Positions 7,637 to 47,632 of a stretch of 61,184 nucleotides of DNA are shown here, in pieces; positions within the stretch are counted from its first letter, which is position 1; each line of letters starts with the position of its first letter. The DNA is from Flavobacteriales bacterium (GTDB lineage: Bacteria; Bacteroidota; Bacteroidia; Flavobacteriales_D; UBA2798). A program made the translations under genes and the position numbers. The notes under the pieces were generated by a model. The model was not told where the DNA came from. It worked only from the letters and a program-made list of their open reading frames with translations, and did no database searches. Location: contig JAIBBF010000015.1 in NCBI GenBank assembly GCA_019694795.1, positions 1 through 61,184 on the forward strand, in the 5' to 3' direction.

Positions 7637-7640
7637 GAAA

Positions 7641-7750
<110 letters not shown>

Positions 7751-7767
7751 AAATTGTAAATATCATA

Positions 7768-7812
7768 ATATTGAAAGAGGATAAACTGAAAAGTCTGGAA
7801 CTGAACAAAACG
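7768..7812 (-). other. 3' arm of the 23S precursor processing stalk
   Basis: The segment from about 7768 to 7812 is complementary to the segment at about 10690-10740 on the other side of the 23S gene. For example, ATAAACTGAAAAGT pairs with ACTTTTCAGTTTAT, and GAACTGAACAAAAC with GTTTTGTTCGGTTC. Long pairing across the ends of 23S is the known RNase III substrate in rRNA precursors. Confidence 0.75.
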
Positions 7813-7817
7813 GAGAT

Positions 7818-10683
<2,866 letters not shown>

Positions 10684-10689
10684 TAATTA

Positions 10690-10740
10690 CGTTATTAGTT
10701 TTGTTCGGTTCTCAAACTTTTCAGTTTATCATTTCAATAT
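10690..10740 (-). other. 5' arm of the 23S precursor processing stalk
   Basis: This stretch between boxA and the 23S 5' end is complementary to about 7768-7812, in two blocks of 13-14 bp separated by short mismatches. It should form the base of the pre-23S stem cut by RNase III. Confidence 0.75.
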
Positions 10741-10750
10741 TTCAAAGAAC
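10741..10750 (-). promoter_or_regulatory. boxA-like antitermination element in the 16S-23S spacer
   Basis: The minus strand reads GTTCTTTGAA, identical to the element in the leader ahead of 16S at 12685-12694. boxA sequences recruit NusB/S10 and keep RNA polymerase in the antiterminated state over rRNA. A copy ahead of both 16S and 23S is the usual arrangement. Confidence 0.7.
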
Positions 10751-10784
10751 TTTCCCTAGCATGAATCACTTCATCTAGAAATTG

Positions 10785-10858
10785 TGGAGAATAACGGATT
10801 CGAACCGTTGACCCCCTGCGTGCAAGGCAGGTGCTCTAGCCAGCTGAGCTAATTCCCC
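10785..10858 (-). tRNA. tRNA-Ala (anticodon UGC)
   Basis: The minus-strand cloverleaf has acceptor stem GGGGAAT/ATTCTCC with discriminator A, an anticodon loop of CTTGCAC with anticodon TGC, and T-arm AACGG-TTCGAAT-CCGTT. It is 74 nt long. CCA is not encoded. It sits in the 16S-23S spacer beside tRNA-Ile, the common bacterial arrangement. Confidence 0.96.
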
Positions 10859-10868
10859 CAACATAATG

Positions 10869-10943
10869 TAGTCCCGAGCAGATTTGAACTGCTGACCCCT
10901 ACATTATCAGTGTAGTGCTCTAACCAAGCTGAGCTACGGGACT
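10869..10943 (-). tRNA. tRNA-Ile (anticodon GAU)
   Basis: The minus-strand cloverleaf has acceptor stem AGTCCCG/CGGGACT with discriminator A, anticodon GAT in the loop CTGATAA, and T-loop TTCAAAT. It is 75 nt long and CCA is not encoded. It is the first tRNA after 16S in the spacer, 10 nt upstream of tRNA-Ala. Confidence 0.96.
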
Positions 10944-11010
10944 AATTACTCAGACCCTCGTACCCAGTCATTTAGATTACACTCGTCTGAGTTGGGAAAG
11001 ACAAAAAATT

Positions 11011-11035
11011 CGAAGAAAGTAAAGAGACAGAAAGC
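11011..11035 (-). other. 3' arm of the 16S precursor processing stalk
   Basis: The stretch containing AGTAAAGAGACAGAAAGCA (11019-11035 region) is complementary to the leader stretch 12651-12679 on the far side of 16S, with a small A/T bulge. This is the expected RNase III stem of pre-16S. Confidence 0.75.
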
Positions 11036-11069
11036 AGATCTACATTGTAGATCAGGAGAACATTACTCT

Positions 11070-12593
<1,524 letters not shown>

Positions 12594-13832: not shown

Positions 13833-16800
13833 ATGTTTTTAATATTTGATACCGAAACCACAGGTTTACCGCAGGATTACAATGCTCCGATTGAAAGGAC
13901 AGAAAACTGGCCGCGTGTGGTTCAAATTGCCTGGCAGATTCATGATATAAAGGGGAAGCTCATAGAGGTAAAAAACTTTATTATTAAACCTGTTGGCTAT
14001 TCGATTCCTTACAATGCAGAAAAGATTCATGGAATTTCTACGGAAAGAGCATTAAAATCGGGTGTTGATATTGAATTTGTATTCGAGGAGTTTAATCAGG
14101 CTATTGCCCATTGTGAGTTTATTGCTGGTCATAATATTGAATTTGATATTAAAGTTTGGGGTGCAGAATTCGTTCGAGCAGGTTTGCCTATTGGAATGCT
14201 TCAAAAAAAGTGGGTTGATACGAAGGATGAATCCACCGAGTTCTGTGCAATTCCAGGAGGAAAAGGCGGAAAATTTAAATGGCCTACATTAACTGAATTA
14301 CACCAAAAGTTATTTCAATCCGGATTTAGCGAGGCGCACAATGCCAGTGCTGATGTGGAGGCAACTACTCGTTGCTTTTTAGAATTGATTCGATTAAATG
14401 TAATCACTCCTGCCCGTCTCGGATTTGGCAATGAATTTTTACATGAATTCAGAATTGAAAATCCGAATCCGATAGCGCTTATTGGTTTAAATATTCAACC
14501 CTATCAACCACTTAATTCTGAACAAAAGGAGAATACAGAAATTAATTTATTTGAAACGACAAGCTCGGAAGATCATAGCGAGCTTTTAAAAGATATTTCA
14601 TTCTCTCATTTACACAATCACTCCCAATATTCCATTCTTCAATCGACTTCGGAAATTAATAAGTTGGTAAAAAAAGCAGCTCAATTAAAAATGCCGGGTA
14701 TTGCACTTACCGATACCGGAAATATGATGGCTGCTTTTGAATTTGTTAAAGAAGTGTTCTCTTATAACAAAGGAGTAGATTCAAGAAGAAAGGAAGCGGA
14801 AGCAAAAGGCGAATCGTTTGACGAAATAAATTTAAAGCCAATCGTAGGTTGCGAGTTTAATATTTGCAGAAATCATCTCGACAAATCGACAAAGGATAAT
14901 GGTTCTCAAGTGGTATTATTAGCCAAGAATGAAAAGGGATATCACAACCTGGCTAAAATGTCGTCGATCGCTTTTGTTTCAGGTTTTTATTATGTACCAC
15001 GTATCGATAAAGAAGTTCTACTCCAATACAAGGAAAATTTAATTGCAACCACAGGTGGATTATATGGAGAAATCCCTAATCTGATTCTGAATGTTGGAGA
15101 GGAACAAGCGGAAACAGCTTTTTTGTGGTGGAAGGAACAATTCGGAGAAGATTTTTATGCTGAGTTGTTAAGGCATGGTCAGGATGAAGAAGAAAAAGTA
15201 AATGAAATTCTATTAAAATTTTGCCATAAACATGGTGTAAAATATTTTGCTGCTAACAATACCTACTACCTCAACCAAACGGATGCAAATGCGCACGATA
15301 TTTTACTTTGTGTAAAGGATGGTGAAAAGAAAGAAACCCCTATTGGAAAAGGTAGAGGATTCAGGTACGGGTTTCCGAATGACCAGTATTATTTCAAGTC
15401 GCAAGAAGAAATGAAAAGCCTTTTTGCTGATCTTCCTGAAGCCATTATTACCACCAATGAGATTGTTGCAAAAGTAGAGCCCTATAAACTTGAAAGAAAT
15501 GTATTGTTACCGAAGTTTGAGATTCCGGATGAATTTAAGTTTCCGGAAGACGATGAAGATGGGGGTAAACGAGGGGAAAATGCTTATTTAAAATTCCTCA
15601 CCTATGAAGGTGCAAAAAAGCGATATACTGAAATAACACCGGAAATTCAGGAGCGTCTGGATTTTGAATTAGCAACCATTGAAAAAACCGGATACCCCGG
15701 GTATTTTTTGATTGTACAGGATTTTACAACCGAAGCCCGAAAAATGGGCGTAAGTGTGGGTCCGGGTCGTGGTTCTGCGGCGGGTAGTGCTGTTGCTTAT
15801 TGTATAGGAATTACCAACGTAGATCCCATTAAATACGATCTACTCTTTGAGCGTTTTTTAAATCCGGAACGCGTATCACTCCCCGATATTGATATTGATT
15901 TTGATGATGAGGGTCGGGATAAGGTTATTGATTATGTAGTAAAAAAATATGGTGCCAATCAGGTGGCTCAAATTATTACCTATGGTACCATGGCTGCCAA
16001 ATCTGCCATACGCGATACAGCCCGGGTGTTGGATTTACCTCTACCCGATGCCGATCGCATTGCGAAATTGATTCCTGATTTATCGCTGGGAAAAATCCTT
16101 GAATTGAATGAAACTGAACTGAAGGAAAAACTGAGTGGGGAAGATCTTGAGATGGCCCAACAACTCAGGAAAATTTCGACGGGTCAGGACCTCTCTGCTC
16201 AAACCGTTCAGCAAGCAAAAATGCTGGAAGGATCCTTACGGAATACCGGTATTCACGCCTGTGGTGTAATTATTACTCCGGAGGACATCACCCGTATTGT
16301 TCCTGTTGCTACAGCAAAGGATTCTGAATTATACGTAACCCAATTTGATAACTCGGTAGTAGAAAGTGCCGGTCTCTTAAAAATGGACTTTTTAGGCTTA
16401 AAAACCCTAACCATCATTAAAGATGCCTGCAAAATTATTAAGGAACGTCATGGTTTAGATCTTGATCCGGACAGTTTTCCGCTGGATGATACCAAAACCT
16501 ACGAATTGTACCAGCGGGGAGAAACGAATGGTACGTTCCAGTTTGAAAGTCCCGGAATGCAAAAGTATTTGCGGGAATTAAAACCGGATACATTTGCCGA
16601 CCTCATTGCGATGAATGCCTTATACCGTCCGGGTCCCTTGGAATACATTCCAAACTTTATCCGGAGAAAGCATGGTCAGGAACCCATCACTTACGATTTA
16701 CCGGAGATGGAAGAATACCTGAAGGAAACCTACGGTATTACAGTATACCAGGAGCAGGTAATGCTTTTATCGCAGAGTCTTGCGGATTTCTCGAAAGGAA

Positions 16801-18212
16801 AAGCAGATGAGTTGCGTAAAGCAATGGGTAAAAAAATCAGAGCAAAGCTGGATGAATTAAAACCACTTTTCATTGAGAATGCAATGAAGAAAGGTCATCC
16901 GGAAGATCGTTTAAATAAAATCTGGACCGACTGGGAAGCGTTTGCATCTTATGCCTTTAACAAATCTCACTCTACTTGTTATGCCTATGTTGCCTACCAA
17001 ACAGCATATTTAAAAGCTCATTATCCGGCAGAATACATGGCTTCTGTTCTCACTCATAACATGAGTGATATAAAAAAGGTAACCTTCTTTATGGAAGAAT
17101 GCCGCAGAATGAAAATTCCGGTATTGGGTCCGAGTGTTAATGAGTCGGAATTAAAATTTACGGTTAACGACAGCGGTGCAATTCGTTTTGGATTGGGTGC
17201 GATTAAGGGGGTTGGAGAAAATGCCGTTGAAGCCATTGTGCAAACCAGAAAAACTGAGGGTAAATATTCGTCTATTTTTGATTTTACCCGAAGAATCGAT
17301 TTGAGAGCTGCAAATAAGAAGACGTTGGAGAACCTTGCATTAGCAGGAGCATTTGATGATTTTGGAATTTCGCGTTCTGCTTTCTTTTTTGATGAGGGTG
17401 ATAACAATACATTTTTATCCAAAGCCATTAAGTTTGGCAGTAATCACCAGGAGGGATTAAATTCTGCGCAGGTAAGTTTATTCGGAGAAGAAAGCTCTGA
17501 ATCGATGCCAGAACCCAGTATTCCACGTGTTGAGCCATGGCCAACGCTTTATCAATTAAACCGCGAAAAAGAGGTGGTGGGAATTTATATTTCGGGTCAC
17601 CCGCTTGATGATTTTCGCTATGATTTAAACCAACTATGCACTAAAGGATTTCATTGTGGAATGATTTCTTTGTTGAACAAAGATTCGCTTAATAAAGAAT
17701 TAAAGCTGGCTGGTATAATAACAAAAGTGGAGCATCGCCAAACGAAAACAGGAAAGCCGTTCGGGTCCTTTGAAATTGAAGATTATGAAGGCAATGCACG
17801 CATGATGTTGTTTGGGGATGATTATTTAAAATTCCGGCCTTATTTAATTGAAAATACGTTTGTTTACATTAGAGGAAGGGTGCAAAACCGAAAATTTGGC
17901 AATGAAATCAAGGAAGATGAGTTTGAATTTAAAATCAACATGATTGATTTGCTTGCCAATGCACGTGAACGTTTTGTAAAAGGAATCAATTTTACAATTA
18001 ATCCGTACAAAGTGAATGAGCGTTTTGTGGATGAACTGGAGCTCTTAATTCAAAAATACAAAGGCAAGACCAGAGTAAAAGTTACGCTCATGGATCATAT
18101 TGAAAAGATTAAAATTGATATGCCGAGTAAAGGGAATGGTGTGGACTTGAGCAATGAATTATTGGAAGAACTGGAACAATTGGAAAATTTAGAATTCGAA
18201 TTTATTTTTTAG
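13833..18212 (+). CDS. dnaE: DNA polymerase III alpha subunit with fused N-terminal 3'-5' exonuclease
   Basis: This 1459-residue replicative polymerase carries a DnaQ-like exonuclease at residues 1-200: ExoI FDTETTG with D6 and E8, ExoII NIEFD, and ExoIII HNASADVEAT. The PHP domain starts at His259 (HLHNHS). The C-family polymerase core follows, with GPGRGSAAGS and the catalytic PDIDIDF (D685, D687, and a third Asp downstream). The clamp-binding motif is QVSLF at 1213-1217, and an OB-fold lies near the C-terminus (VEHRQTKTGKPFGSFEIED). The exonuclease fusion is known in Bacteroidota DnaE and means proofreading is in cis. The MORN-like gene begins 5 nt after its stop. Start choice: the ATG immediately precedes the ExoI strand. 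Confidence 0.97.
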   Translation: MFLIFDTETTGLPQDYNAPIERTENWPRVVQIAWQIHDIKGKLIEVKNFIIKPVGYSIPYNAEKIHGISTERALKSGVDIEFVFEEFNQAIAHCEFIAGHNIEFDIKVWGAEFVRAGLPIGMLQKKWVDTKDESTEFCAIPGGKGGKFKWPTLTELHQKLFQSGFSEAHNASADVEATTRCFLELIRLNVITPARLGFGNEFLHEFRIENPNPIALIGLNIQPYQPLNSEQKENTEINLFETTSSEDHSELLKDISFSHLHNHSQYSILQSTSEINKLVKKAAQLKMPGIALTDTGNMMAAFEFVKEVFSYNKGVDSRRKEAEAKGESFDEINLKPIVGCEFNICRNHLDKSTKDNGSQVVLLAKNEKGYHNLAKMSSIAFVSGFYYVPRIDKEVLLQYKENLIATTGGLYGEIPNLILNVGEEQAETAFLWWKEQFGEDFYAELLRHGQDEEEKVNEILLKFCHKHGVKYFAANNTYYLNQTDANAHDILLCVKDGEKKETPIGKGRGFRYGFPNDQYYFKSQEEMKSLFADLPEAIITTNEIVAKVEPYKLERNVLLPKFEIPDEFKFPEDDEDGGKRGENAYLKFLTYEGAKKRYTEITPEIQERLDFELATIEKTGYPGYFLIVQDFTTEARKMGVSVGPGRGSAAGSAVAYCIGITNVDPIKYDLLFERFLNPERVSLPDIDIDFDDEGRDKVIDYVVKKYGANQVAQIITYGTMAAKSAIRDTARVLDLPLPDADRIAKLIPDLSLGKILELNETELKEKLSGEDLEMAQQLRKISTGQDLSAQTVQQAKMLEGSLRNTGIHACGVIITPEDITRIVPVATAKDSELYVTQFDNSVVESAGLLKMDFLGLKTLTIIKDACKIIKERHGLDLDPDSFPLDDTKTYELYQRGETNGTFQFESPGMQKYLRELKPDTFADLIAMNALYRPGPLEYIPNFIRRKHGQEPITYDLPEMEEYLKETYGITVYQEQVMLLSQSLADFSKGKADELRKAMGKKIRAKLDELKPLFIENAMKKGHPEDRLNKIWTDWEAFASYAFNKSHSTCYAYVAYQTAYLKAHYPAEYMASVLTHNMSDIKKVTFFMEECRRMKIPVLGPSVNESELKFTVNDSGAIRFGLGAIKGVGENAVEAIVQTRKTEGKYSSIFDFTRRIDLRAANKKTLENLALAGAFDDFGISRSAFFFDEGDNNTFLSKAIKFGSNHQEGLNSAQVSLFGEESSESMPEPSIPRVEPWPTLYQLNREKEVVGIYISGHPLDDFRYDLNQLCTKGFHCGMISLLNKDSLNKELKLAGIITKVEHRQTKTGKPFGSFEIEDYEGNARMMLFGDDYLKFRPYLIENTFVYIRGRVQNRKFGNEIKEDEFEFKINMIDLLANARERFVKGINFTINPYKVNERFVDELELLIQKYKGKTRVKVTLMDHIEKIKIDMPSKGNGVDLSNELLEELEQLENLEFEFIF

Positions 18213-35062: not shown

Positions 35063-37003
35063 ATGATTTATTCTTTAAAAACTCCATTTGTTGTTGCATC
35101 ACTCGGTGTATCAGTATGGATGATGGCGAGCATTGAAAATGGTTCTTCTCAACGTAATTCATTTCACGGTAAAAAACCTGTGTTAAATGCTCATCAGGTT
35201 CGCTCGCTCGGATTTCAATCGAACGCCTTGTTTTCTGCAGCAGGGATCTGTTATAATTGTCATGGTTATGATGCTAATCAATCTTCTTCTGTTGATGCTG
35301 CCGGAAATGATATTAATGTAATTGATGCCTGGGCCGGAACAATGATGGCCAATTCTGCCCGTGATCCATTTTGGCGCGCTAAGGTTAGTCACGAAGTGGA
35401 TGTAAATCCTGCGCACCAATCTGCATTGGAAGGAACCTGCACCAAATGTCACGCACCATTGGGGAAATTTAATGCCATGCATTTGGGAACTCCTTATGGC
35501 ATGACCGAACTGGCAGCTGATTCTGTTGGATTAGATGGTGTATCCTGCGGTGCTTGTCACCAACAAAAAGACACTTTAATGGGCAAGCGTTTTTCGGGAG
35601 AGTTGTATTATGACACTCTGAAAAATGTCTATGGTCCTTTCACCAATCCGATGGGTCCGATGGCAGGAAATATTGGTTATACACCCGTGTACAGTCCACA
35701 CATCAATCACGCTGGTTTATGTGGTGGTTGCCATACGCTCATTACACAAGCGACGGATTTAAGCGGGAATTTAACAGGGACATCGTTTGTTGAGCAGGCT
35801 ACCTATCATGAATGGCTGAACTCCAATTTCAACAACGAAACGTTCCCTACCACCGGAATAACCTGTCAGGGTTGTCACATTCCGCGCACCAATGATCAGG
35901 TGCGTTTGTCGACCGGTCCGCCTTTCGGTTTATACCGTTCTCCATTTGGAAAACATGAATTGGTAGGTGCCAATATTTTTATGTTGCGTTTACTTAAAAA
36001 CAACCGGACGCTTTTGAATATTTATTCAACTGCTGTTCAACTGGATTCTTCCATCTTGCGTACACAACGCATGTTGCAGCAACAAACGTTGGATTTAAAT
36101 TTAGCCTTAAGCAACCGGACAGCAGATACTGCATTTTATAGTTTGACGCTCCATAATAAAGCCGGACATAAATTCCCGAGTGGATATCCATCCCGCCGAG
36201 CTTATGTGGAATTTGTAGTGCGCGATGAAATGGGTGATACATTATTTAAATCCGGGATTCGAAGCAATAATGAACTTGTTGGACAAGATCCGGTTTTTGA
36301 ACCTCACTATAATTTTATCCGCGACGAAAATGAAGTGCAGATTTATGAAATGGTGATGAGCGATATCAACGGCGATCCAACTTCCATATTAGAACGAGGT
36401 TATCAGGCATCGAAAGACAATCGCCTTGCTCCGGAAGGATTTACAGATGCACATATTGCTTACGACACGTGTAAAATTGTTGGCAATGCAACGCTTGATT
36501 CTGATTTTAACCGCAATGGTGCAACACAAGGTACGGGAAGTGATATTCTTCACTATAACATTCCATTGAATGGTTATTCCGGTTTATTGAATGTAAGTGC
36601 AAGGGTTTATTATGAGTCGGTTCCCGGCAGATTTGTACAGGAAATGTTTAGTCACTCCACTCCGGAAATTGATTTATTTGAAACACTTTTTAACAGTGCA
36701 GACCGGAGTCCGATTCTCGTTGCAGAAGCATTATTGCAAGAAGGATTTACAAATGTTGAGGAAAATAATTTACCTGATTTAATTATTTATCCGAATCCTT
36801 CTGCCGATGGATTATTCCGCTTTAGTTCAAGCACCATTTCCATTTCTACCATTGAGGTTTTTGATTTATCGGGACGAATGATTGCATCGTATCAACCGAA
36901 TGGTCCGACCCAGCAATTTCAGATTTCTACCAGTCCGGGCATCTATCTTGTTCGTATTTGCACGCCATCCGGAAATTGTATCCGCAAAGTGGAAGTGCGA
37001 TGA
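35063..37003 (+). CDS. Exported pentaheme c-type cytochrome with T9SS sorting domain
   Basis: The 646-residue protein has five CxxCH heme sites, beginning at residues 63 (CYNCH), 126 (CTKCH), 162 (CGACH), 220 (CGGCH) and 268 (CQGCH). Many His residues between them could be distal ligands. An N-terminal hydrophobic segment (about 8-25) should serve as the signal. Residues 330-560 are a beta-rich region with no heme. The end is a type A sorting domain (IIYPNPSADGLFRFSSS ... GIYLVRICTPSGNCIRKVEVR in parts), which implies surface delivery by the type IX system. A surface multiheme protein suggests electron transfer outside the cell. It overlaps the next gene at ATGA. Confidence 0.88.
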   Translation: MIYSLKTPFVVASLGVSVWMMASIENGSSQRNSFHGKKPVLNAHQVRSLGFQSNALFSAAGICYNCHGYDANQSSSVDAAGNDINVIDAWAGTMMANSARDPFWRAKVSHEVDVNPAHQSALEGTCTKCHAPLGKFNAMHLGTPYGMTELAADSVGLDGVSCGACHQQKDTLMGKRFSGELYYDTLKNVYGPFTNPMGPMAGNIGYTPVYSPHINHAGLCGGCHTLITQATDLSGNLTGTSFVEQATYHEWLNSNFNNETFPTTGITCQGCHIPRTNDQVRLSTGPPFGLYRSPFGKHELVGANIFMLRLLKNNRTLLNIYSTAVQLDSSILRTQRMLQQQTLDLNLALSNRTADTAFYSLTLHNKAGHKFPSGYPSRRAYVEFVVRDEMGDTLFKSGIRSNNELVGQDPVFEPHYNFIRDENEVQIYEMVMSDINGDPTSILERGYQASKDNRLAPEGFTDAHIAYDTCKIVGNATLDSDFNRNGATQGTGSDILHYNIPLNGYSGLLNVSARVYYESVPGRFVQEMFSHSTPEIDLFETLFNSADRSPILVAEALLQEGFTNVEENNLPDLIIYPNPSADGLFRFSSSTISISTIEVFDLSGRMIASYQPNGPTQQFQISTSPGIYLVRICTPSGNCIRKVEVR

Positions 37004-42424: not shown

Positions 42425-42661
42425 ATGAAATATATTTTCATTGGATTGGTTCGTTTTTATCAAATGGCAATTTCGCCTTTGACGGGTCCAACCTGCCGGC
42501 ACACGCCCACTTGTTCGGGTTACACCATTGAAGCAATTCGCGAATGGGGTGCTTTTCGCGGTGTTTGGCTTGGGATGAAACGACTATCTAAATGTCACCC
42601 TTGGGGAACACATGGTCATGATCCGGTTCCTCAGCGTAAAAAAGGTCAATGGAAATTTTAA
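42425..42661 (+). CDS. yidD: Membrane protein insertion efficiency factor YidD
   Basis: The 78-residue protein has the full YidD signature: LVRFYQMAISPLTGPTCRHTPTCSGYTIEAI with conserved cysteines, then GVWLGMKRLSKCHPWGTHGHDPVP. An N-terminal amphipathic helix attaches it to the inner membrane, where it assists YidC. It usually neighbours yidC, but here it leads yidD-hemB-dinB-caspase; hemB starts 17 nt after its stop. Confidence 0.95.
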   Translation: MKYIFIGLVRFYQMAISPLTGPTCRHTPTCSGYTIEAIREWGAFRGVWLGMKRLSKCHPWGTHGHDPVPQRKKGQWKF

Positions 42662-42677
42662 TAAACAAGGTAAAACG

Positions 42678-43658
42678 ATGTTAATACGCCCAAGAAGAAA
42701 TCGTAAGAGTGAAGTGGTTCGCTCTATGGTACGTGAAACCAGACTTGAATTGGATAATTTAATTTATCCGTTGTTTTTAGTGGATGGTAAAAACAAAAAA
42801 TCTGAGATAAAATCCTTGCCCGGCAATTTCAGGTTATCCGGAGATTTAATTCTGAAGGAGATTGAAACATGCATGAACCTTGGTTTAAATTCTTTTATTC
42901 TTTTTCCTGCAGTTGAGGATAGTTTAAAAGATAAAACGGCGACTTACAGTTACAGCAAAAAGAATTTTTATCTGAAGACCATTGCAGAAATAAAAAAACG
43001 CTTTCCGGAATGCGTATTGATTTCAGATGTGGCCATGGATCCCTATTCGAGTGATGGTCATGATGGTCTTGTAAAAAACGATCGCATTGTAAATGACGAA
43101 ACGCTTCCGATTCTGGCAAAGATGGCAATAGCACAAGCAGAAGCCGGCATTGATATGGTTGGTCCGAGCGACATGATGGATGGTCGCGTAGGATACATTC
43201 GTGAAAGTCTGGACGACGAAGGTTTTTCTGAAGTCTCCATTATGAGCTACACCGCAAAATACGCCTCAGCCTTTTATGGTCCCTTCCGCGATGCCCTGGA
43301 TTCAGCTCCCAAAAAAGGAGATAAAAAGACCTACCAAATGGATCCTTCCAATAAACGTGAGGCTTTAAAAGAAGCGATGCTTGATGAAAGCGAAGGCGCT
43401 GATTTTTTAATGGTAAAACCTGCGTTGAATTATCTGGACATTATTCATCTTCTTCATGAACAAAGCACATTACCCATTGCTGCCTATCATGTAAGTGGTG
43501 AATGTGCCATGCTAACTGCCGCATGTAAAAATGGATGGCTCGATTATAAAAAAGCAATGCCCGAAACCCTACTGAGTATTCGTCGCGCCGGTGCCGATGC
43601 CATTCTCACTTATTTTGCGAAAGATTACGCTTTACTTATCAACGGAAAACTGAAATAA
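42678..43658 (+). CDS. hemB: Delta-aminolevulinic acid dehydratase (porphobilinogen synthase)
   Basis: The protein has 326 residues from the ATG at 42678, just after YidD. It condenses two aminolevulinates into porphobilinogen for heme. The two active-site lysines are in SYTAKYASAFYGPFRDA and MVKPALNYLD. The metal region reads DVAMDPYSSDGHDG, with Asp where zinc-type enzymes have Cys, so this is the aspartate-rich (magnesium-type) form. It sits in an apparent operon with dinB starting 1 nt after its stop. Heme from it would serve the cytochromes encoded elsewhere. Confidence 0.97.
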   Translation: MLIRPRRNRKSEVVRSMVRETRLELDNLIYPLFLVDGKNKKSEIKSLPGNFRLSGDLILKEIETCMNLGLNSFILFPAVEDSLKDKTATYSYSKKNFYLKTIAEIKKRFPECVLISDVAMDPYSSDGHDGLVKNDRIVNDETLPILAKMAIAQAEAGIDMVGPSDMMDGRVGYIRESLDDEGFSEVSIMSYTAKYASAFYGPFRDALDSAPKKGDKKTYQMDPSNKREALKEAMLDESEGADFLMVKPALNYLDIIHLLHEQSTLPIAAYHVSGECAMLTAACKNGWLDYKKAMPETLLSIRRAGADAILTYFAKDYALLINGKLK

Positions 43659-43659
43659 G

Positions 43660-44166
43660 ATGCGTCCCGATACCGATGAATATCCCGGATACTACGAACC
43701 GTTTATTGGTCTTGTAAAAACCAGCGAGATTGTTGCCGAGCTGCGGGAATCGGGCGATCAGATTGTTGAATTTTTAAGTTCGATTTCCGAAGAGCAAGGC
43801 AATTACAACTACGCGCCAGATAAGTGGAGCATTAAAGCAGTAATCCTGCACATGATTGACACGGAACGTATTTACACTTACCGTGCATTGCGCTTTGCGA
43901 GAAATGATTCCGAAGAATTGCCAGGTTTTGATGAAAATCAATTTGCCAATAATTCCTTCGCGGAAAAACGCAGTATGGAAACTATCATTGCCGAATTTAA
44001 AGCCGTTCGAAATTCTACCATTGCACTTTTTGAAAATCTGGATTCTTCTACACTTACTAAAAAAGGTAAGGCTAACGGACATTTAATTTCTGTCCGGGCC
44101 ATTGCTCATATACTTGCCGGACATGCCTTGCATCATTGCAACATCATCCGGGAACGATATCTCTGA
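43660..44166 (+). CDS. DinB-family protein
   Basis: The 168-residue protein is a four-helix bundle of the DinB/YfiT type: KWSIKAVILHMIDTERIYTYRALRFARN, and a final AHILAGHALHHCNIIRERYL. The three metal histidines (H in LHMID, and two in GHALHH) are present. Family members include thiol-S-transferases and stress-induced proteins; the substrate is unknown. It is tightly placed between hemB (1 nt) and the caspase gene (4 nt). Confidence 0.92.
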   Translation: MRPDTDEYPGYYEPFIGLVKTSEIVAELRESGDQIVEFLSSISEEQGNYNYAPDKWSIKAVILHMIDTERIYTYRALRFARNDSEELPGFDENQFANNSFAEKRSMETIIAEFKAVRNSTIALFENLDSSTLTKKGKANGHLISVRAIAHILAGHALHHCNIIRERYL

Positions 44167-44170
44167 TACC

Positions 44171-47100
44171 ATGAAACAACAACTTGCCCTTATCACCATT
44201 CTGGTGACGTTTTTTTCTTTTACGCTTCAAGCTCAGGTGGATTTGATTACCCAATCGCGGATGAATGGGGCCATTACTAAAATTGAATATTCGCCGCAGG
44301 GAAATTATATTGCATCGGTGAATGAGGGCGACAATGCCATTCGGGTTTGGGATGTTAGAAGCGGAAAAATTATCGGTTCTTTATTTGGACATGAAAGTAA
44401 AATCCGTGCCCTTGCCTTTGTCCCCTCAGGCGACCGCATTATTAGCGCCGATAAATCCGGAACCATTATATCGTGGGATTTGAATACCTGGATTCCTTCA
44501 GACAGCAGCTCTGCCGGTGAAGAAATTAATTGTTTAAGGGTGATCAATCAACAACAATTTGTAATTGGAACTGCTAAGGGAAATCTGGTTTATAAAAACA
44601 TCAGTGATTTAAAAACAACACAATCGATTGCCTGTGGTAAAAGCGAAATCAGCGATTTAACCATTCATCCGAACAATACGCAACTAGCAATTATTGTTAA
44701 GGGAAAAGAAATACAGGTTTATGATGCCGGCGGAAAAAAACTGCAAGTTATCCCATGTAAAGATCCCATCCATTCTCTCCTGTACGGAAGTGATGCGCAA
44801 CTGATAACAGCCGGAGCCGAAGGAAAATTGGCTTTATGGGATATTAAATCCAAAAAGAAAACAGCAGAAATCAGCGCACATGGCGGACAAATAAACACCA
44901 TGGCGATACGGAAAGACTTTAGCTATTTAGCCACTGCAGGAAGCGATAAATCGTTAAAAATCTGGAAAGCGGGCGATTTATCTGTAGAAAAAATAATAGA
45001 AGAATCTGCCGGAACACCTATTGGAGCATTGAGTTTTAGTCCCGACGGCACCTCACTGGCCACATCGGGTTTTAAGAAAAACATGATTACCGGTATTGCT
45101 AAAAGTGAAAACACCATTCGCATTTTTAATCTCAATACAGGTAAAGTTTACAAAGAATTAAAGGGTAGTGTTAAACCTGTAATTACGTTTAGCTTTTTTC
45201 CGAACGACAATAAAATTGCCATATTACATGAAGACCAGGAATTAAGTTTCTGGGATTTTGATCTGGGCGAAAAAACCGGATCCTTCACTCTACCCGATGC
45301 AAAACGCGAATATTATCCTTCGGCCGATAAAGTGAAAGATAATGCAGTGGGAACCATTAATTCCGGTGTAAATACTGCACAGGATATAATGAATGGAAAC
45401 TTCCAGCTGAATAAGAAAAAAACGGCAAAAACGGTGGGACTGGCCACCCAAAAAAATCTCGATAAAATCATCGATTTTGATCCTGTGATTTTATTTTCCT
45501 CGAAAGGTAATTTTATGGTTACCCAATTGCCCAAAGATGAAATTCGCGTTTATCAGATCATTGATGGAAAACCTGTTTATCGTTTTTATCTGAAACATCG
45601 CTTACAAAAAGTCAACGCCATTGCCATTTCTCCGGATGAAAATTTTGTAGTGTGTGGTGGAATTGGTGATGAATATGTAACCGTGTGCGATTTAAAAACG
45701 GGAGAATTCAGCGGCTCATTTTATTACAACATCCCCAATCAAACAGCTGCTATTTCAGAAATCCTTGACGTGAGTTTTAGTCCCGACGGAAAACTTTTTG
45801 CTGCTGTTTTTAACACCGGAAAACTTTTTGTTTCGGACTTCGGTAAGCGTTCGGTGATTTTCGAAAATCTTCTTCCCGTTAACCTATCTGCCTTACAAGG
45901 CGGATTTGTGAATTTCAGCAGAGATGCCAAATACATTTTATATAATTCGGTAGATGGTTTTCGCAAACTTTCCATTGCCGGATTTACCGATGAGATTGCA
46001 GCCAGCATTCATTTAAAAGGCCGGATTCTCCCCATGTACGATCCGCAGGATTTTGCCGTGAGCAAGACCAAAGATGGTATTTCCGTGTTCAATATTCTCA
46101 ACGGAAACACAGTGGATATTCCCTGCCCTACCCGCGAAATCACCAATGTAGGTATCAGCTCCGGCGGTAGAATCGCCATCAGTTTTAAATCGGGAGAGAT
46201 CCGGATTTTTAATGTGGAGAATGGGAAAAATATTGCCACGATGGTGACCGAGGGCGATAATGCCATTATTAAAACTTCCGACAACTTTTACAAGGTGAAC
46301 AAGGAAGGTTATTCGCTGGTGACCTTCCGTGTGGGAAAAAATGCCTATCCCTTTGAGCAATTCGATTTATTTTTTAACCGTCCCTCCCGCGTTTTGGAAG
46401 CGTTGGGTTCATCCAATAAAAACCTGGTGAAACTTTATGAATCGGCCTATGAAAAAAGGCTGCAAAAAAACGGTCAGCAAAGCCAGATTTTGTCCATTTC
46501 CAACTTACCGGGCATCGAAATCACGAACCGTGCGGAGATCGGATTAAGCACAAAGGAAAAAAGCATCCGTATCGCCGTAAAAGCCCAGGCCAGTCATTCG
46601 AAAATTACGGGACTTCAATTCCGTGTTAACAATGTTCCGGTTTTTGGCATTCAGGGTATTCGTTTTGCTGCCCGAAATTCGATAGATACAACAGTTGTCA
46701 TACCCCTTTTAAGCGGAACCAATGAAATCCGTGTTGCCAGTTATGCTGCCGACGGGACAGAAAGCTTAAATGAGGCTTTTCAAATAGAAGCGGATTATAA
46801 AGCCAGCAGCAATTTGTATTTGGTTACCATTGGGACATCGGCTTACAAGGACAAAAAATTCTCTTTAAAATATGCCGCCAAAGATGCCAAAGATATGGCC
46901 GCCGCATTTGGAGCTTCAGGCGGATTTAGCAGTGTAAAAACCAAGTCGCTCACCGATGCTGAAGTAACGAAGAAAAACATTCTTGCATTAAAAGATTTTC
47001 TCCTGCAGGCGGATGTCAACGACGTGGTGATGATCTTTGTTGCGGGTCACGGTGTGCTCGACAAAAACTTCAATTATTTCTACGCTCCTTTTACGATGGA

Positions 47101-47632
47101 TTTTAATAATCCCGCCAAAGAAGGCATCTCTTATGATTTACTGGAAAGCCTGCTCAACGGTTTAAAAGCCATCCGTAAAATTCTGATTATGGATACCTGT
47201 CACAGTGGTGAATTGGAAAAAGAAGATGTTCAAGGTTCAACCTCCAACAATGCAAACGTGGAAAGCGGCGATGTTGAGTTCCGTGCCGTGGGTGAGGGTG
47301 CTGAATACAAGGACGCTCAAATGGCAGGTGCCAGTAAAATGGTGAAGGAATTATTTGCCGATTTACGCAAAGGAACGGGTGCAATTGCTATTTCAAGTGC
47401 CGGTGGAACTGAATATGCCATGGAATCGGAAACCTGGAAAAACGGATTGTTTACCTATTGCCTTTTGGAAGGATTAAAATCGAAAAAGGCCGACCTCAAC
47501 AGCGATGGAACCATCACCTTACAGGAGGTGCAAAAATACGTTGTAGAACAGGTCAGCAACATCAGTTCCGGAAAGCAGGTTCCCACCACCCGTGTGGATA
47601 ATTTTATGCTGGATTTTCCATTGTGGAAATAG
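44171..47632 (+). CDS. Exported WD40-repeat protein with C-terminal caspase (C14) domain
   Basis: The protein has 1153 residues from the ATG at 44171. A signal peptide ends near TLQAQ. About residues 30-770 hold many WD40-like blades (AIRVWDVRSGKIIGSLFGH, KLALWDIKSKKK, SLKIWKAGD, IRIFNVENG), enough for two propellers. A beta-rich linker is followed by the caspase domain from about 885 (LYLVTIGTSAYKD): catalytic His960 in AGHGV and Cys1010 in DTCHSGE, then a Ca/acidic-type region and SSAGGTEYAMES, where the family has its substrate pocket. Both catalytic residues are intact. It ends a tight run yidD-hemB-dinB-caspase. Prokaryotic caspase relatives cut after Arg or Lys, but the target here is unknown. 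Confidence 0.9.
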   Translation: MKQQLALITILVTFFSFTLQAQVDLITQSRMNGAITKIEYSPQGNYIASVNEGDNAIRVWDVRSGKIIGSLFGHESKIRALAFVPSGDRIISADKSGTIISWDLNTWIPSDSSSAGEEINCLRVINQQQFVIGTAKGNLVYKNISDLKTTQSIACGKSEISDLTIHPNNTQLAIIVKGKEIQVYDAGGKKLQVIPCKDPIHSLLYGSDAQLITAGAEGKLALWDIKSKKKTAEISAHGGQINTMAIRKDFSYLATAGSDKSLKIWKAGDLSVEKIIEESAGTPIGALSFSPDGTSLATSGFKKNMITGIAKSENTIRIFNLNTGKVYKELKGSVKPVITFSFFPNDNKIAILHEDQELSFWDFDLGEKTGSFTLPDAKREYYPSADKVKDNAVGTINSGVNTAQDIMNGNFQLNKKKTAKTVGLATQKNLDKIIDFDPVILFSSKGNFMVTQLPKDEIRVYQIIDGKPVYRFYLKHRLQKVNAIAISPDENFVVCGGIGDEYVTVCDLKTGEFSGSFYYNIPNQTAAISEILDVSFSPDGKLFAAVFNTGKLFVSDFGKRSVIFENLLPVNLSALQGGFVNFSRDAKYILYNSVDGFRKLSIAGFTDEIAASIHLKGRILPMYDPQDFAVSKTKDGISVFNILNGNTVDIPCPTREITNVGISSGGRIAISFKSGEIRIFNVENGKNIATMVTEGDNAIIKTSDNFYKVNKEGYSLVTFRVGKNAYPFEQFDLFFNRPSRVLEALGSSNKNLVKLYESAYEKRLQKNGQQSQILSISNLPGIEITNRAEIGLSTKEKSIRIAVKAQASHSKITGLQFRVNNVPVFGIQGIRFAARNSIDTTVVIPLLSGTNEIRVASYAADGTESLNEAFQIEADYKASSNLYLVTIGTSAYKDKKFSLKYAAKDAKDMAAAFGASGGFSSVKTKSLTDAEVTKKNILALKDFLLQADVNDVVMIFVAGHGVLDKNFNYFYAPFTMDFNNPAKEGISYDLLESLLNGLKAIRKILIMDTCHSGELEKEDVQGSTSNNANVESGDVEFRAVGEGAEYKDAQMAGASKMVKELFADLRKGTGAIAISSAGGTEYAMESETWKNGLFTYCLLEGLKSKKADLNSDGTITLQEVQKYVVEQVSNISSGKQVPTTRVDNFMLDFPLWK

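Follow-up and report, generated by a model that had tools for sequence, protein, structure and literature searches.

A predicted exported WD40-caspase with an intact His-Cys dyad and a candidate self-cleavage arginine in a Flavobacteriales bacterium

The window, a stretch of 61,184 nucleotides of Flavobacteriales contig JAIBBF010000015.1, carries at 44171..47632 a gene for a WD40-caspase predicted to be exported, the frame of which is intact over 1153 codons from ATG to TAG. It is preceded by yidD (42425..42661, Pfam YidD), hemB (42678..43658, Pfam ALAD) and a gene (43660..44166) that had been read as dinB but encodes, according to Pfam (DinB_2) and NCBIfam, a DinB_2/YfiT-like protein of the thiol-transferase type, not DNA polymerase IV. 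All these genes, as well as the features described below within the caspase gene, lie on the plus strand. The gaps measure 16 nt between yidD and hemB, 1 nt between hemB and the DinB_2 gene and 4 nt from the DinB_2 stop to the caspase; an earlier note on this DNA had the last two right and gave 17 nt for the first.

The protein opens with a signal peptide and two beta-propellers, continues with a conserved module that has no annotation and with an Ig-like sandwich, and ends in a C14 caspase domain. This order was derived from the translation, Pfam and AF2 model mb6e8a1a6ccff of the full-length protein (36 sequences, mean pLDDT 82, pTM 0.79), in which the propellers are connected via a poorly predicted linker and the helical conserved module, the sandwich and the caspase domain lie downstream. 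A second AF2 model, restricted to residues 671-1153, was built with 68 sequences (pLDDT 90, pTM 0.88). WD40 repeats were found by Pfam, and Foldseek aligned the N-terminal propellers of the AF2 model with tandem-propeller proteins such as 1nr0. The first propeller comprises approximately residues 24-373 (44240..45289; Pfam WD40 matches, AF2 strands and the tandem-propeller matches), the second approximately residues 439-710 (45485..46300; AF2 strands and Foldseek), hence the WD40 array that the earlier note described as two-propeller-sized indeed forms two propellers in the model. They are separated by a helical, low-confidence linker (residues 383-433, 45317..45469; pLDDT < 50 for 385-433), and mean identity among relatives is 19.5% over the inter-propeller residues 374-438. 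Overlapping the end of propeller 2 is the module with the YPFEQFD...NRP motif (residues 700-770, 46268..46480), which has 58.8% mean identity to the query among 25 relatives and no significant match in a Pfam scan, hence no Pfam family. Conservation of its YPFEQFD stretch, as that of MDTCHSGE in the caspase domain, is inflated in the named loci because these were picked with patterns that include both, which does not apply to Arg1038 or the EF-hand-like loop discussed below. The module could serve as a family-defining mark. It is followed by the Ig-like beta-sandwich (residues 781-874, 46511..46792), recognized by AF2 strands in both models, with a sub-threshold Cadherin-like hit (E=0.04) as the sole Pfam match.

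The signal peptide (residues 1-22, 44171..44236) is of type I, lacks a lipobox and was called by inspection, a hydropathy heuristic that is a loose rule, and conservation among relatives. The N-terminus reads MKQQLALITILVTFFSFTLQAQ, then Val; its Lys/polar start leads into a hydrophobic core that closes with an A-Q-type end, and its hydropathy score is 2.78. By the same rule 75 of 80 relatives are signal-peptide-like versus 464 of 861 neighbouring ORFs; two of the five relatives that fail are fragments and the others appear to be hydrophobic or mis-started. The export signature, with A-x-A-like ends, extends across nearly the whole caspase family, and the six C14 proteins of this genome that share the C-terminal module all have signal-peptide-like N-termini and no T9SS tail. 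Export looks like a family trait. Regarding destination, a profile search gave no match to the T9SS C-terminal sorting domain in the WD40-caspase, which is thus not placed among T9SS substrates, and export by T9SS was rejected for lack of the sorting tail. The genome has approximately 123 such tails and no caspase bears one, which favours the periplasm over the cell surface as the probable location. From the earlier proposal of a periplasmic or surface caspase the export signature was recovered in the N-termini of nearly the whole family, with the periplasm favoured and the surface less likely.

Peptidase_C14 (PF00656) matches residues 886-1141 with 66.6 bits against a cut-off of 21.4. The p20 part (residues 882-1014, 46814..47212), delimited by Pfam, the alignment to AtMC4 (6w8s) and Foldseek, holds Asp905, Asp1008, His960 and Cys1010. 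Since AGHG begins at residue 958 and DTCHSG at 1008, the dyad is formed by His960 (CAC, 47048-47050) and Cys1010 (TGT, 47198-47200), precisely the residues named before. All four are present in 68/68 sequences of the alignment, and the dyad is found in 20/20 proteins of a whole-genome set free of pattern bias. Judged from sequence, similarity this strong across 1153 codons combined with a dyad that is invariant in all aligned family members is not chance. Top Foldseek matches of the 671-1153 model are GSU0716 (3bij, E 5e-10), MALT1 and procaspase-6. As to a metacaspase p10 domain, which the p20-only orthocaspases lack, the fold matches cover approximately 280 columns of whole caspases, whereas the sequence match to AtMC4 covers p20 only. 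The p10-like part (residues 1061-1153, 47351..47629; AF2) shows 64.9% mean identity among relatives. The structure prediction that the earlier note had proposed as a check hence backs the caspase fold, and the exported WD40-caspase fusion with intact dyad can, given the open frame, Pfam, the dyad residues, AF2 and Foldseek, be considered real. NCBIfam NF047832 (caspase, EACC1-associated type) scored 81.2 bits, below its 140-bit score, and EACC1-type identity was rejected.

Asp905 and Asp1008 align to the S1-pocket Asp residues of metacaspase-4 (AtMC4 6w8s) and via this alignment correspond to TbMCA2 Asp95 and Asp211, two residues important for basic substrates (PMC4357240, PMC6426788). Given their invariance, cutting after Arg or Lys is therefore predicted. 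The position of the metacaspase pocket Cys (TbMCA2 Cys92) is occupied by Ala (53/68) or Pro (15/68), so that activity could be low; of the features of the metacaspase type C14B (basic P1), the family has the two S1 Asp but lacks this Cys. Intact dyads are the rule among Bacteroidetes C14 proteins, with 10 pseudo-variants of 1078 (PMC6426788). We predict the protein to be a C14 cysteine protease. A paralogue pair elsewhere in the family (L075:7496-10747 and L082:6851-10093) has DTCLSG instead of DTCHSG, hence keeps the Cys and has lost the next His.

The p20-p10 linker (residues 1015-1060, 47213..47350) is, according to the conservation profile, variable and largely acidic, with the exception of a V-x-F-R-x-V-G motif (residues 1035-1041, 47273..47293) that shows 72% mean identity to the query in 25 relatives versus 24-27% on either side. 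Residue 1038 (codon 47282-47284) has the lowest entropy in the linker, being Arg in 62 and Lys in 4 of 68 sequences; Arg1038 is kept in 19/20 proteins found without sequence patterns, and most proteins that lack Arg here carry Lys, the pattern expected at a P1 site. The motif is missing from more distant C14 proteins of the sampled genomes, in which the linker is short. Within the caspase domain the linker has the lowest model confidence, with pLDDT of approximately 56-61 (full model) and 67-80 (module model). A basic residue conserved between the subunits of a predicted basic-P1 protease has the look expected of a self-cleavage site, and self-cleavage probably occurs after Arg1038. Precedents exist: MaOC1 autoprocesses and needs the cut for activity (PMC5756287), and the available parts of a work on metacaspases describe intra-chain cuts for maturation, Lys/Arg specificity and calcium dependence (PMC9622860).

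The p10-like part contains an EF-hand-like loop, D-L-N-S-D-G-T-I-T-L-Q-E (residues 1108-1119, 47492..47527), with a helix-loop-helix around it in the AF2 models. Ligand positions 1, 3, 5 and 12 are conserved in 65-67 of 68 sequences, and the usual Gly is present in 39/68 only. Since Pfam EF-hand_1 scores 19.2 bits (E=8e-4), below its cut-off of 25.4, calcium binding by these residues is put forward as a proposal. The cytoplasm has little free calcium compared with the space outside; such a loop would therefore tie activity to export.

Among known systems, GSU0716 of Geobacter sulfurreducens (PDB 3bij) is the best fold match (TM 0.63 on target), and its GEIRYRAMP segment aligns with the GDVEFRAVG motif of the query, but it is a 285-residue chain without propellers and with 18% identity. 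MALT1 paracaspase and the procaspase-6 zymogen share the fold according to Foldseek at 12-17% identity. MALT1 has Ig domains and a basic P1 preference, with the order of Ig and caspase domains reversed compared to the query. AtMC4, TbMCA2 and the Candida glabrata metacaspase resemble it in the two S1 Asp, basic P1, intra-chain maturation and, for several, calcium; these are eukaryotic metacaspases, however, and the query has Ala or Pro instead of the pocket Cys and a calcium site that, if any, is a different EF-hand-like loop. MaOC1, the orthocaspase of Microcystis aeruginosa, is likewise a prokaryotic C14 protein with basic P1 and required self-processing (PMC5756287), but is a p20 protein without additional domains, for which the available parts of that paper report no propeller or export feature. 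PorE/PG1058 of the T9SS is a multidomain WD40 protein outside the cytoplasm in Bacteroidota, according to the parts available of PMC5053529, and lacks a caspase domain. As far as the accessible parts of a survey of prokaryotic metacaspases go (PMC3501461), prokaryotic C14 domains are combined with WD40 more often than with any other partner, some of the catalogued architectures have an N-terminal helix that is likely a signal peptide, and genomes can hold many copies (28 in Haliscomenobacter); those parts mention neither the EQFD module, the conserved linker Arg and the EF-hand-like loop nor the query clade. The fusion is thus real but less unusual than the earlier note implied, given the common WD40 partnership, the catalogued helices and the prevalence of intact dyads. 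Exported or periplasmic caspases of this type were not found in the open-access literature searched. What appears new is the acidic linker with its near-invariant Arg1038, the two invariant S1 Asp residues and the EF-hand-like loop; the architecture as such is known and the protein a variant of it, for which a specific activation hypothesis can be put forward.

The earlier note also suggested a search for C14 proteins with signal peptides and WD40 repeats in Bacteroidota, and this identified a multi-copy family across the phylum. The genome itself (G000) has seven C14 proteins, six of which share approximately residues 640-1152 while the seventh is more distant; the query is 39-43% identical to its five module-sharing paralogues. 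A C14 match was found in 18/80 genomes of the order, six of which, including this genome and its congener, have at least four, and full-length relatives occur in approximately 10/150. Several families of the class have the shared C-terminal part; strong matches in the rest of the phylum are few. Scanning named genomes yielded 140 relatives; the 80 retained come mostly from Bacteroidota, and a few belong to Ignavibacteria, Nitrospirae, Cloacimonadota and Myxococcota. In a tree of 96 proteins, made by a quick method and with midpoint root, the query and its counterpart in the congener (G002) fall within a 28-member clade of mainly Crocinitomicaceae and relatives. Several other copies pair with copies of the congener in separate clades; the copies hence appear to be old and to have been inherited separately, which speaks for several distinct functions.

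The mechanism we favour, at about an even chance of being correct, is that of an exported basic-P1 zymogen, with the fold taken from the predictions. It would be made as a zymogen and secreted via Sec. Outside the cytoplasm, presumably in the periplasm, the EF-hand-like loop may take up calcium, which would order the p10 part, although calcium dependence is the optional element of the scheme. The enzyme would then cut its own acidic linker after Arg1038, in line with the predicted Arg/Lys preference at P1, and thereby free the active site. The two propellers and the Ig-like domain may hold an envelope protein or complex, such that a chosen client is processed. A broader and distinctly more tentative idea is that the family as a whole consists of location-gated exported caspases, silent in the calcium-poor cytoplasm, with an EF-hand-like switch, a self-cut Arg and propellers aimed at the envelope, the copies having different clients.

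A rather unlikely alternative to cleavage is that Arg1038 acts as a structural or inhibitory latch, in which the V-x-F-R strand would be paired with the core and its Arg lodged in the acidic S1 pocket, so that the enzyme stays off until a ligand engages the propellers. The models do predict a strand at 1035-1038 (full model) or 1035-1037 (module model), procaspase-6 zymogen structures are among the top folds and the pocket Asp residues are invariant; linker confidence is low, however, and a purely structural role leaves the long variable acidic flanks unexplained. Since a latch can be the first substrate, it is compatible with cleavage at Arg1038. That the apparent signal peptide is a membrane anchor of a cell-death or anti-phage caspase seems improbable: the export signature with its A-x-A-like ends is family-wide, the paralogues are old and separately inherited rather than mobile, and no recognised defence genes adjoin the caspase in the window or among the neighbours inspected, which led us to reject a defence island, even though the PADLOC caspase model gives a weak match (E=6.6e-9) and NACHT/WD40-caspases occur elsewhere, as the available parts of PMC3501461 describe. 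The earlier suggestion of a role other than that of a cytoplasmic death or defence protease fits an exported propeller-caspase with intact dyad. Hardly more probable is a secreted protease for nutrient breakdown or fratricide outside the cell. Its export signature and the suggestion of such roles for some prokaryotic caspases, in the same parts of that survey, agree with this, but the T9SS tail is absent in a genome that has approximately 123 and the large docking domains suit selective processing over bulk digestion.

The last alternative is that the caspase works with its operon, such that heme synthesis or YidD-assisted membrane insertion is jointly regulated with the protease. The short gaps fit a single transcript, yet scans for promoters and terminators between the genes gave no signal above chance, so that co-transcription is what we infer from spacing. 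Gene order was compared with the congener (Flavobacteriales UBA2798) and, within the same family, with one other genus (G001). The earlier note had asked whether the order is seen only in this genome: the yidD-hemB-DinB_2-caspase order is kept in the congener and in no further relative, and the congener is collinear over the whole surrounding block (TonB-type protein, yidD, hemB, DinB_2, caspase, purH, mreBCD, mrdA and rodA). In the sister genus the yidD-hemB-DinB_2 trio is intact, but the gene after it is unrelated and convergent; the best caspase match is located on a separate contig among other neighbours (58% over the 76 residues remaining at the contig end). This fragment probably represents the orthologue, though it may instead be a paralogue. 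Caspase relatives in other families have other neighbours, and hemB, yidD, DinB_2 and purH are absent from the DNA examined around the caspase in the other 79 named loci. On the simplest reading the caspase came to be placed behind an older trio in a single genus, and its heme-gene neighbours are probably accidental. Since the hemB linkage is not conserved, shared regulation or a heme function is unsupported; the functional link to heme synthesis or YidD was rejected on the gene order in the sister genus and the 79 loci, and we regard joint operation with the operon as largely refuted and very improbable. Recurrent neighbours in the query clade are a CoA-transferase, a flavin amine oxidoreductase-like protein and a 546-aa protein (Crocinitomix-type genomes); as these are clade-specific and not shared with the window, no partner can be derived from them.

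Near other caspase-family members an exported-looking protein of approximately 260-290 aa (e.g. L163:6628-7416) recurs in eleven loci (L163, L167, L171, L176, L178, L183, L187, L189, L193, L201 and L211), often adjoining the caspase. It had no Pfam match in the two members scanned and may be a caspase partner in those sub-clades. Several of these loci have a SpoIIE-domain protein nearby, with regulator-propeller and Y_Y_Y domains in the one copy scanned (L178).

To our knowledge the trigger or substrate is known for very few prokaryotic caspases, and cytoplasmic ones have received most of the attention. The preferred reading of an exported zymogen with self-cleavage is of interest since the family provides a clear candidate site of activation together with a predicted specificity, and does so in a compartment for which the usual models of death and defence are a poor fit. 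The negative result on the heme operon is useful as it indicates that the operon is no clue to function.

Other features of the window deserve mention. A complete rRNA operon (16S, two tRNAs, 23S and 5S) occupies 7640-12593 of the minus strand and accounts for the lack of long genes there. At 13833-18212 DNA polymerase III alpha is encoded with a PHP domain and an N-terminal exonuclease-type (RNase_T) domain in one 1459-aa chain. The product of 35063-37003 carries five CxxCH heme motifs and a T9SS sorting tail and has a cytochrome c7-type match; it is a candidate cell-surface multiheme cytochrome exported by the T9SS.
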